A stretch of 64,000 nt of DNA from Corynebacterium doosanense CAU 212 = DSM 45436. GTDB taxonomy: Bacteria > Actinomycetota > Actinomycetes > Mycobacteriales > Mycobacteriaceae. Position numbers and translations under genes: made by a program. The notes under the pieces were generated by a model, which saw nothing but the letters and a program-made list of their open reading frames with translations, had not been told where the DNA came from and made no database searches. Below are positions 12,170-15,797 of the stretch, one piece after another (position 1 is the stretch's first letter; every line of letters starts with the position of its first letter). Location: positions 1,426,001 through 1,490,000 of the forward strand of contig NZ_CP006764.1 in assembly GCF_000767055.1 (NCBI RefSeq). Direction: 5' to 3'.

Positions 12170-12826
12170 ATGAGACTCATCTCGTCCGCTGACGGCACCA
12201 CCGTGCGAATCCACGTAGCGGGCCGGCGCCTGAGCGCGGCGGACTTCGCCGTGTTGGTTGAGGCGGCCTCGCGTGGCGACGGCGACCTGTACATCACATC
12301 CCGGGGCAACATCCAGATCCGGGGTCTGGCGGAGGTCCCGGACAAGCTGTCGGCACTGTCGGCAATGTCGGATTCGGCTGCGGGAGGCGTCGATAAGCCC
12401 GCCGAACTGGGATGGTTCGAACGCCCGGACGGCACGGTCGATCTGGGCGGGGCGCTCGCCTTCGGGGTGATCCGCGCGAAGGTGGCGAAGCTGCTGACGG
12501 TGCTGGAGGCGGAGGTCACGGTCACGGCGCGGCGCACATTTGTGCTGCACGGGCTCGAACCTCACGTGGCTGAGGCGGCCGTGCGGGTGCTCGCGCCCCT
12601 GGGGGTCAGCTTCGACGAGGCGACGGACCTGGTGCGCATCAGCGCGTGCGTGGGCGCGCCGGCGTGCCGCCATGGGCTGACCGATGTGCGCCAGGACGCG
12701 TTTCGCGCCGACACGCCCGGCAGAGTGCATTTTGTCGGATGCGCGAAGGCCTGCGGGCGGCCGACGGAGCCGCACACCGAGTTCATGGCCACCGGCGAGG
12801 GTGAGTACGAGGTGACCAAACGTTAG
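12170..12826 (+). CDS. CobG/nitrite-sulfite reductase-like siroheme/Fe-S protein, half-length
   Basis: The 218-residue product has the ferredoxin-like half domain (ADFAVLVEAASRGDGDLYITSRGNIQIRGL) followed by the Fe-S and siroheme motif: ISACVGAPACRHG and VHFVGCAKACGRP give C-x5-C plus C-x3-C. CobG (precorrin-3B synthase) and assimilatory reductases normally hold two such halves in 400 or more residues; here only one is present. No other cobalamin gene is visible around it. It could be a reduced remnant or a distinct small redox protein. An AT-rich island follows immediately. Confidence 0.75.
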   Translation: MRLISSADGTTVRIHVAGRRLSAADFAVLVEAASRGDGDLYITSRGNIQIRGLAEVPDKLSALSAMSDSAAGGVDKPAELGWFERPDGTVDLGGALAFGVIRAKVAKLLTVLEAEVTVTARRTFVLHGLEPHVAEAAVRVLAPLGVSFDEATDLVRISACVGAPACRHGLTDVRQDAFRADTPGRVHFVGCAKACGRPTEPHTEFMATGEGEYEVTKR

Positions 12827-13138
12827 CGGGGCCCAAAAACATTTCTCGCAAACTAACGATAATAGGACCTGCGATTCCAGATTACAGATAACTCAACATA
12901 TGAAGCCAGCAGGCACAACTTTGATAAGCGAGTCACGCTTGCTAAAGGCCATAGCATTTAAATAGCTCACCTCCCCAACCACGTGCCAACCGAAGTCAGA
13001 TGCAGTATCATCAAAACTCGGTTGAGCAAGTAAAAAGCTTCTGGTGATCAATAGCGATACAAGCTCCCACGCTTCAACATATACCTATGCAGTCGTCGTT
13101 CCCCAGTTCCAACACCAAACCTAGATGAAGGCGCAAAG
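12827..13138. other. AT-rich 312-bp region at the left edge of the OLD island
   Basis: Composition changes abruptly within about 15 bases of the cobG-like stop codon. The region holds the upstream DNA of the OLD nuclease gene and, on the minus strand, a possible gene remnant (12893-13084). No integrase, tRNA edge or clear direct repeat was seen. Confidence 0.6.
12893..13084 (-). pseudogene. possible remnant of a decayed gene
   Basis: A 63-codon open frame ends with TGA at 12893 and begins after an in-frame TAG. It reads like ordinary protein (segments WELVSLLITRSFLLAQ, DFGWHVVGEVSYLNAMAF and DSLIKVVPAGFIC) but has no good start or ribosome binding site. Its AT-rich codons match the neighbouring OLD gene. 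It may be the tail of a gene lost from the island; chance cannot be excluded. Confidence 0.3.
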
Positions 13139-15061
13139 ATGATCATCAAATCGATACGATACCTAGGGATCAAGGGTGCCTCGAAACCCGTTGAAATCTT
13201 CCTCGATCCGGCAACCACGGTGCTATGCGGAAAAAATGATGCTGGTAAGTCGACAGCACTCGAAGCGATGAACCTCTTTTTCAATGGGAAGCAGATCCCA
13301 GAACCTCTTGTAACTAAAATCAATGGGATTGCCATCGAATCATCCTGGGTTGAAATAGTATTCGACGACGTTCCGTCCGATATCGTTATCGATTCGACCG
13401 CAAAGACGACATTGGCCGACGAGTTACTCCTAACCCCTGAAGGAATGTTGAGGATAAAGAGAGATTTCACCGGAAGTAAACCAAAAACCACGATTATCGC
13501 ACCGCACCCAGTCTTGGCAGAGAATCAAACATCACTCTTGGAATTGAAAATAAAAGACCTTAAAAATCTGGTTAGTGAATGGGGAATAGGTGACAGGGTA
13601 GCCGACCACCGATCTTCCGGAGCTTATAGGCGCGCACTATATACCGAAATGGATAGATTTATCTTACTTGACGAGTATGAGCTGTCCAATCCGGACTCTG
13701 ATTTAAAGGACTTCGTCGCTAGACTCAACGACGTACTCCCCTCGTTTTCCCTCTTTAAAGCAGAACAAGTTTCCAACGAAGGGGAGTCGTTTATTCAAAG
13801 CCCAGCAACCGCCGTGGTCGAACGGGTGCTTAAATCGCACTCCGAATCACTCGGCAAAGTCACCAAAATGATCATTCGAGACATGGAGATTCAGTTCCGG
13901 GCAGTTGCCGATGAACTGGGTCGGATCGCACCCTCACTCGCTACTACTTTCCATCCGGATGATCTCAAGCCCGACTGGAAGAAGGCCTTTTCCAAGGCCT
14001 CCTTCGTGGACCACATGGGCGTTCCGCTGAGCATGCGAGGAAGCGGAATGCGCCGATTGGCATTATTAAGCTTCTTTCGAGCCCAGATCGGCTCGAACAT
14101 GAGTTCCAATCATATCTATGCGGTAGAAGAACCTGAAGTTTTCCTTCACCCCAAACTTCAAACCGAGATTTGGAGCACCCTTTTCGATTTATCGAGTGGA
14201 GGTGGACAGCAGATAATCCTTACCACCCATTCTCCAAACTTTGTGCGTCTGGCACCGGTCGATTCCATTCGATATATCACCGATGACTCAGTACATTGGT
14301 ATTCTCCTGGAGGCATGGGCACCGTGGCTTCGGCTAGTGATTTGCTTCCGTTAATTCAGTCCTCATTAGGAGTGCTTTCAGATCATAATGTCAAATGCTT
14401 CCTACTAGTCGAGGGTTCCAGAGACATTGAAAGCTTGACTCGGCTGTTTTCAACCGAAATCGCAGAGAAAGAATTTGGCCTTGGTTCGGCCGTTGATGAT
14501 GGACGGCTGATGATGCTTCCGATTGGCGGATGCGGTGCTACGAGTATTTGGTCTGGCCGTTTAGACTCATTGGATCGAACTGTAATACAGTTACTAGACG
14601 GGGATAAACCTCCCTACGAGCATAAATCAGAGTATTCTCTCGAGGAAGACGGTTTCTGCGTGACTGCTAAGTTGGACGTAAGGGAATTGGAGAATACACT
14701 TCCACGTAATCGCGTAATTGAGATCTTGACAGAAACTTGGGGGTACGCTGGCTCTGGGCTGGATCCACAGGCTCTGGAAGCCCAGCTCGAGGACTTTTTA
14801 CCCCAAGACGAAACTCATTATTCTATTTGCGATATTCCGACTTCTTGCGCTGAAGCTTTCTATATGGCGTCCGGGTCCCCCATCGACTCGAGATCCGGTA
14901 CTGTTTCAGATGACGATCGCATACGCATTAGGGATAAGGAAGCCAAGGTTAAATATATTCTTGCGCGGGCCTTCGGGCAATGTGATGCTAACGATTTGAA
15001 CTATATAAAAGCCACTAATTTAGGTAGCCTCCTCAAGCTGCTTCAGGGCCTAGTGGCGTAA
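13139..15061 (+). CDS. OLD-family ATPase with TOPRIM nuclease domain
   Basis: The 640-residue product combines a split SMC/RecF-type ATPase with a C-terminal TOPRIM domain. Walker A is GKNDAGKS (31-38), the signature-like stretch is LSMRGSGMRR (298-307), Walker B is HIYAVEEPEVFLHP (325-338) and the H-loop is TTHS (362-365). TOPRIM shows LLVEGSRD with E425 and LLDGD with D487 and D489, the expected metal ligands. OLD proteins cleave DNA and block phage (P2 Old; Gabija GajA works with a UvrD-type helicase). No helicase or partner gene is adjacent, so this is a stand-alone type. Low GC and codon use unlike both flanks indicate transfer. GAAGG lies 8 bases before the ATG. Confidence 0.88.
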   Translation: MIIKSIRYLGIKGASKPVEIFLDPATTVLCGKNDAGKSTALEAMNLFFNGKQIPEPLVTKINGIAIESSWVEIVFDDVPSDIVIDSTAKTTLADELLLTPEGMLRIKRDFTGSKPKTTIIAPHPVLAENQTSLLELKIKDLKNLVSEWGIGDRVADHRSSGAYRRALYTEMDRFILLDEYELSNPDSDLKDFVARLNDVLPSFSLFKAEQVSNEGESFIQSPATAVVERVLKSHSESLGKVTKMIIRDMEIQFRAVADELGRIAPSLATTFHPDDLKPDWKKAFSKASFVDHMGVPLSMRGSGMRRLALLSFFRAQIGSNMSSNHIYAVEEPEVFLHPKLQTEIWSTLFDLSSGGGQQIILTTHSPNFVRLAPVDSIRYITDDSVHWYSPGGMGTVASASDLLPLIQSSLGVLSDHNVKCFLLVEGSRDIESLTRLFSTEIAEKEFGLGSAVDDGRLMMLPIGGCGATSIWSGRLDSLDRTVIQLLDGDKPPYEHKSEYSLEEDGFCVTAKLDVRELENTLPRNRVIEILTETWGYAGSGLDPQALEAQLEDFLPQDETHYSICDIPTSCAEAFYMASGSPIDSRSGTVSDDDRIRIRDKEAKVKYILARAFGQCDANDLNYIKATNLGSLLKLLQGLVA

Positions 15062-15101
15062 AGCTATTTTTTTGATGCTGCATTCACCGCGCTCTTAAGA
15101 A

Positions 15102-15797
15102 TCACCGTGGCATGTGCCGCCAGATCGGGCGTGGCACCAGATTCATGATGGTGGCCAGGACGAGCAGCCCCGGTGGGATCCAGAAGGTGCCGGGGCGACC
15201 GAAGCGCTCGACCACCGCGCGGGCGACCTGCTCCGGGCGCACCGACATCACCGCGGGTGACATGCCCTCGGTCATCGAGCCGATGACAAACCCGGGACGC
15301 GCGATGTAGAGCTCCAGGTCGGTGCCGTGGAGGCGGTCGGCGAGTCCCTGGCAGAAGGCGTCGAGGCCGGCCTTGGTGGAGCCGTAGACGTAGTTGGCGC
15401 GCCGAGGCCTCCAGCCGGCGATGGAGGAAAACGCCACGATGCGCCCGGAGCTCATGTGGTCGGCGAGAACGGTGAGCATGGAGATCTGGGCGACATAATC
15501 CACCAGGGCTATCTCGGCGGCATGGTGTTCATCCGTCTCCGCGCGCTCCTGATCCCCGAGGATGCCGAAGGCCACGATGGCGGTGTCGATGGGCCCGGCA
15601 AGGCGTTCCGCCTCCTCGACGAGCGCCCGGTGAGAGTCGAGGTCGGTGGCCTCGAAGGCCAGCGTGTGGGTGGTTCCGGGCAGCTCCGGGATCTTCTCCG
15701 GGTCCCTGGCTGCGAGGACCACCTGCTCCCCCTCCCCGATCAGCTTGACGATTTCCGTGCCGATGTCGCTGGTCGCGCCGAGGAGGAGGATGCTCAT
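15102..15797 (-). CDS. short-chain dehydrogenase (DprE2-like SDR)
   Basis: The 231-residue SDR has the cofactor motif ILLLGATSDIGTEI (3-16), an AFGI strand end at the NNAG position, and the catalytic Ser-Tyr-Lys in SSIAGWRPRRANYVYGSTKAG. The C-terminal RPGFVIG and the IWRHMPR tail resemble DprE2, the reductase making decaprenylphosphoryl-arabinose for the cell wall. A second DprE2-type paralogue is common in corynebacteria, so the substrate is uncertain. It converges on the OLD island, which ends before its stop codon. About 160 bp upstream hold no visible gene. Confidence 0.85.
   Translation of the reverse strand: MSILLLGATSDIGTEIVKLIGEGEQVVLAARDPEKIPELPGTTHTLAFEATDLDSHRALVEEAERLAGPIDTAIVAFGILGDQERAETDEHHAAEIALVDYVAQISMLTVLADHMSSGRIVAFSSIAGWRPRRANYVYGSTKAGLDAFCQGLADRLHGTDLELYIARPGFVIGSMTEGMSPAVMSVRPEQVARAVVERFGRPGTFWIPPGLLVLATIMNLVPRPIWRHMPR

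Follow-up and report, generated by a model that had tools for sequence, protein, structure and literature searches.

Within the window analysed here, a 64,000-nucleotide stretch of the genome of Corynebacterium doosanense, a 2,275-bp AT-rich insert (positions 12827–15101) is bordered by the stop codons of a cobG-like gene and a short-chain dehydrogenase (SDR) gene, and it raises the question of where this DNA came from and whether the single gene that it carries could act by itself in defence against phages. The segment is best read as a horizontally acquired, stand-alone OLD-family gene, for which we infer anti-phage defence as the most likely role, a reading that we hold with reasonable though not full confidence.

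The island begins at the base after the stop codon of the cobG-like gene (12826) and ends at the base before that of the SDR gene (15102). Its GC content is 0.476 versus 0.669 for the remaining window, its ORF shows a GC3 of 0.50 versus 0.85–0.89 for the flanking genes, and none of the 1-kb bins outside the island fell below 0.56 GC along the 64 kb scanned. These values, together with the stop-codon borders, bear out the first-pass annotation, which had described an AT-richer segment of 2.3 kb exactly filling the gap between two convergent genes, and which had also placed one complete OLD protein there. In fact, the only sense-strand ORF of at least 60 aa in the segment is that of the OLD gene (13139–15061, plus strand, 640 codons, 640 aa), the remaining listed ORFs (13048–13491 and 13891–14109) being antisense. 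No integrase or recombinase was present in the island ORF list, and neither a target-site duplication, nor terminal inverted repeats, nor a tRNA could be convincingly recognised at its ends. Likewise, the leader of the island matched no Rfam family, folding of this 312-nt leader was no better than that of shuffled sequences (z −0.67), and no DNA-level relatives of the island were found on plasmids.

The same annotation had taken both flanking genes as core genes, and this held for only one of them. The SDR gene on the right (15102–15797, minus strand; adh_short, 6.6e-21) is widespread (135 of 151 Corynebacterium genomes), but the cobG-like gene on the left (12170–12826, plus strand; Pfam 4e-12) appeared in 43 of 151 and is not core. 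The latter encodes 218 aa with a single NIR_SIR half domain, where fuller cobalamin loci have a product of about 390 aa, and is probably a remnant or a shortened form.

Eight related species, each represented by one genome, keep cobG and the SDR gene within about 2 kb of each other. The gap between them is empty (0–10 bp) in four, holds cobK in two and small ORFs in the other two. In the four empty cases (G132, G136, G075, and G102), the cobG-like and SDR genes stand tail to tail without any insert, with a 4-bp overlap or a 10-bp gap, and this junction shows the island to be a clean acquisition. The cobK gene was assigned by Pfam in G138 and by resemblance in G131, and the small gap ORFs of G018 and G061, which are closely related species, are common to both and without Pfam match. 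Loci L070 (6072–6545) and L071 (6216–6650), from two related species, show a conserved small gene without Pfam match, of about 144–157 aa, between cobG and SDR. In fuller loci (L076, L085), cobG and SDR are separated by cobalamin genes. Among the eight related species, the gap showed no second defence cargo, so the proposal of a recurrent integration site was not supported, and the site resembles a cobalamin locus that is shrinking and has taken up one insertion.

The distribution of the protein agrees with this origin. Relatives were found in 2 of 201 Corynebacterium genomes, the own genome counted (E up to 1e-20), so that the gene, far from occupying this place in all relatives, is almost absent from them. 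In a family-wide sample of 251 genomes, the own genome alone was matched, and in a phylum-wide sample of 246 genomes the profile search, at a strict cut-off of 1e-60, again gave a single match, corresponding to the own genome. The second Corynebacterium copy, from strain NML140438 (L002/L088), is the nearest relative, with 37–38% identity; it is encoded at a different locus, adjoining an Mrr restriction nuclease, a DUF6996/6997/7226 protein and a D12 adenine methyltransferase. Both Corynebacterium proteins group together, with 99% SH-aLRT support, in a tree that also included P2 Old and YbjD. We conclude that the OLD gene was acquired horizontally and recently.

Back-translated patterns of the single protein detected no close relatives in genome contigs or viral contigs, and homologues were recovered once the alignment was used as query, those from the genome collection being the best 80 of more than 565. 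The resulting set of 83 homologues covers many bacterial phyla, an archaeal MAG and viral contigs, and homologues are also found on conjugative plasmids.

By sequence profile and predicted fold, the island protein is an OLD-family ABC ATPase joined to a Toprim nuclease. Pfam AAA_15 matches residues 1–369 at 4e-40, and the profile of the 83 homologues matched, among solved structures of the PDB, Thermus scotoductus OLD best (2.9e-26), followed by GajA (2.4e-19), with further matches to PtuA, AriA and the retron Eco8 OLD, that of AriA being well below those of Thermus OLD and GajA. P2 Old and YbjD were matched by hhalign at 97.5% and 96.6%, respectively. The full-length AlphaFold2 model (mean pLDDT 87, pTM 0.69) had Thermus OLD, GajA and then retron Eco8 as its top Foldseek matches. 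None of the Pfam Toprim models matched the island protein itself, and the OLD-like_TOPRIM model was reached by 19 of the 83 homologues.

The motifs that had been listed on first reading (Walker A, Walker B, the H-loop, E425, D487 and D489) were all found intact at the positions then given. Walker A (GKNDAGKS, residues 31–38; 13229–13252, plus strand, as for all the following) contains K37 and S38, invariant in the 83 homologues. An invariant RGSG segment (residues 300–303; 14036–14047) would correspond to an ABC signature-like motif. The Walker B region (residues 325–338, HIYAVEEPEVFLHP; 14111–14152) includes EEPE and H337, with E330, E331, P332, E333 and H337 invariant, and the H-loop histidine H364 (14228–14230) is equally invariant. 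In the Toprim part, motif 1 runs from E425 to D429 (14411–14425), followed by the DxD of D487 and D489 (14597–14605) and by E516 and E518 in the sequence RELEN (14684–14692), which are probable second-metal ligands by comparison with T506/E508 of Bp OLD. E425, D429, D487, D489 and E518 are invariant in 83/83 sequences, E516 is present in 82/83, and printed profile alignments place E425, D487 and D489 onto E377, D431 and D433 of Thermus OLD, whose catalytic residues are defined in PMC7049728. Finally, a predicted C-terminal helical domain (residues 543–640; 14765–15058), seen in the model of residues 395–640 and in the fit of the nuclease half, carries K605, present in all of the 71 homologues with a residue at that position.

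The assignment of this protein to a described OLD class is less straightforward. Class 1 proteins (P2 Old, Thermus scotoductus OLD, E. coli YbjD and V. cholerae OLD) are likewise encoded by isolated single genes and combine an ABC ATPase with a Toprim domain, with the E and DxD residues aligned; one of them, Thermus OLD, gave the best match among solved structures for the whole island protein. However, the latter is about 90–110 residues longer than Thermus OLD and YbjD, its predicted C-terminal helical domain is absent from Thermus OLD, and it differs from Class 1 in that its candidate catalytic lysine sits in that domain. A Toprim domain followed by a C-terminal helical domain is the arrangement of Class 2 OLD and GajA, where the best structural match of the nuclease half was found. 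Residues 395–640 modelled alone (pLDDT 88) matched Class 2 OLD 6nk8 with Z 11.5, rmsd 3.3 over 169 residues, PARIS AriB 8ux9 with Z 11.0, rmsd 4.3 over 184 residues, thus tied with Class 2 within error, and Class 1 Thermus OLD 6p74 with Z 8.2, rmsd 3.1 over 129 residues. On the basis of the predicted domain, the invariant K605 would be comparable to K562 of Bp OLD. A class placement from a tree including P2 Old and YbjD was dropped, as the branches of both were saturated. According to these comparisons, the island protein is Class 1 by gene context and nearer to Class 2 by the modelled shape of its nuclease end, so that no described OLD class fits it cleanly, and it shows an unusual combination of gene context and C-terminal architecture. 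At least 11 uncharacterised OLD clades have been reported (PMC12796447), and the homologue family may be one of them; for this reason, we do not claim a new class.

Known multi-component systems were also compared with the island. The first-pass annotation had found no UvrD helicase, retron, AriB or toxin partner beside the gene, and this was upheld: there is no other sense gene, and thus no partner of a described two-gene system, in the segment, and the flanks are the cobG-like and SDR genes. Gabija includes the UvrD-like GajB, but no UvrD/PcrA/Rep-like helicase was found in the island or its flanks, nor was a UvrD helicase among the 25 families listed for 68 downstream neighbours of homologues, the sampled neighbours of which likewise showed no reverse transcriptase or DUF4435 gene, and GajA stands below Thermus OLD in the whole-protein profile score; identity with Gabija was rejected for lack of the helicase. 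A GajA family search across the phylum gave no matches, but the controls likewise gave none. The OLD effector of retron-Eco8 (Class 3) shares the same domain order and was found by Foldseek, but that system has a reverse transcriptase and a structured non-coding RNA, neither of which is in the island, no ORF of which encodes a reverse transcriptase, and a retron effector identity was rejected accordingly.

The gene neighbourhoods of the homologues bear on whether the island gene acts alone. Among the best homologues listed, HsdS was found upstream in 8 of 70 immediate neighbours, an N6/N4 methyltransferase downstream in 6 of 68 and Mrr downstream in 3 of 68, and these counts, which carry no background rate, suggest that the homologue family is linked with restriction. 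The order OLD-mod-res recurs across unrelated phyla, with cases from Planctomycetota, Bacteroidota, Nitrospirota, Comamonadaceae and others, sometimes with gaps of 4–13 bp. In seven loci (L097, L104, L122, L128, L145, L150, and L152), the OLD gene is closely followed on its 3' side by type III mod and res, apparently in one operon, and in eight others, mostly from Pseudomonas (L110, L116, L125, L127, L131, L132, L154, and L157), hsdM and hsdS lie directly upstream of the OLD homologue. In several of the hsdM-hsdS-OLD loci, the OLD homologue is followed by a second AAA_15 ATPase gene. An RmuC-family gene, identified as such in L110, lies further upstream. In addition, the OLD homologue adjoins an nSTAND3 NTPase gene in three viral contigs (L169, L171, and L172), a possible mobile defence pair. 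The second contig of the own genome (about 27 kb, perhaps a plasmid) encodes an N6 adenine methyltransferase at G000:C2:10330-11259 (L190) in a 664-codon frame, which could be a plasmid-borne restriction-modification gene.

Such neighbourhoods allow a different, possible reading, to which we give a minor share of the weight, in which the family evolved as an accessory of restriction-modification that would be set off by phage blockage of restriction, in the way that Ocr sets off PARIS, the island copy being an orphan that watches restriction systems elsewhere in the genome. The position of OLD directly before type III mod-res in several phyla, the eight hsdM-hsdS loci, the Mrr genes downstream of three homologues and, with the D12 methyltransferase, beside the Corynebacterium relative all speak for it, as do the two N6 methyltransferase genes of the own genome and a nuclease half that resembles AriB and Class 2 equally well. 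However, many homologues have no restriction gene as immediate neighbour, the island copy adjoins none, and the association comes from counts that lack a background rate. A broader proposal, which we regard as rather doubtful, is that the family constitutes a widespread undescribed OLD class of single polypeptides that lack a helicase but whose nuclease end is of the Class 2 type, and which would have entered type I/III restriction operons time and again as guards against anti-restriction while being able to move solo.

PARIS (AriA plus AriB, with single-gene fusions) also combines an AAA_15 ATPase with a Toprim nuclease, and the island protein might be a natural fusion of an AriA-type ATPase and an AriB-type nuclease that cleaves host tRNA. 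Such fusions exist (PMC9122126), AriA was the best PADLOC model and AriB the near-tied match of residues 395–640; yet the PADLOC match covers the generic ATPase part only, in the profile search AriA ranks well behind both Thermus OLD and GajA, and DUF4435, required by the published rule, was matched by none of the 83 C-terminal halves (E up to 0.01) versus 19 for OLD-like_TOPRIM. The island protein, one polypeptide of OLD type, has no DUF4435 match either. PARIS as defined by that rule was thus rejected, DUF4435 and a second gene both being absent, and we consider the fusion unlikely.

Returning to anti-phage defence by the acquired OLD gene, this reading rests on the OLD architecture supported by profile and fold, on the near-invariant two-metal residues in 83 sequences, on the acquisition, and on the mobile and defence contexts of the homologues (conjugative plasmids, viral contigs, and HsdS, Mod, Mrr and nSTAND3 neighbours). 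From these comparisons, one-gene defence is plausible. In the mechanism that we propose, the ABC ATPase head (residues 1–390), with an inserted helical segment at about 217–268 that would probably serve for dimerisation, would sense a putative infection cue, and its nucleotide state would control the C-terminal Toprim nuclease (420–540), which the helical domain of residues 543–640 would complete by supplying K605. Once released, the nuclease would use two metal ions to cut nucleic acid, presumably halting either the growth of the phage or the infected cell. The substrate could be DNA; alternatively, it could be tRNA, the reported target of P2 Old and AriB. In this respect, the precedents differ: P2 Old, as cited in PMC13261556, responds to inhibition of RecBC and is reported to cleave tRNA, GajA cuts DNA (PMC8136825), AriB cuts tRNA (PMC12409363), the anti-phage phenotype of YbjD is independent of its Toprim domain (PMC13261556), and the archaeal OLD protein Cran1 is a cell-cycle protein without a defence role (PMC12796447), so that the substrate is not predictable from the fold. 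Several points count against defence: the role attributed to the family comes from more distant relatives, Cran1 acts in the cell cycle, YbjD can do without its Toprim domain, and the island protein itself matched no Pfam Toprim model. In addition, the frequent restriction operons of the homologues suggest that some members need partners, so that strict one-gene action of the OLD gene is less certain.

That the gene is instead a decaying passenger without function seems improbable: it is the sole gene of an AT-rich insert that carries no mobility genes, and no strong promoter signal was found for it above chance, but its full-length ORF has no stops or frameshifts and keeps all the catalytic residues at only 37% identity to the nearest relative. 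A housekeeping role in DNA repair or the cell cycle, for which Cran1 and the likeness of the ATPase head to Rad50 and SMC could be invoked, is about as improbable, given that a scattered distribution, a foreign base composition and occurrence on plasmids and in viral contigs are atypical of a housekeeping gene.

Stand-alone OLD genes are rare, present in 0.45% of genomes according to a cited estimate (PMC13261556), and little has been established about what triggers them and what they target. The links of the homologues with restriction operons provide a testable idea for the trigger, and a compact one-gene OLD whose nuclease end resembles that of Gabija, but which has no helicase, would help to tell the action of the nuclease itself from the contribution of the partner.
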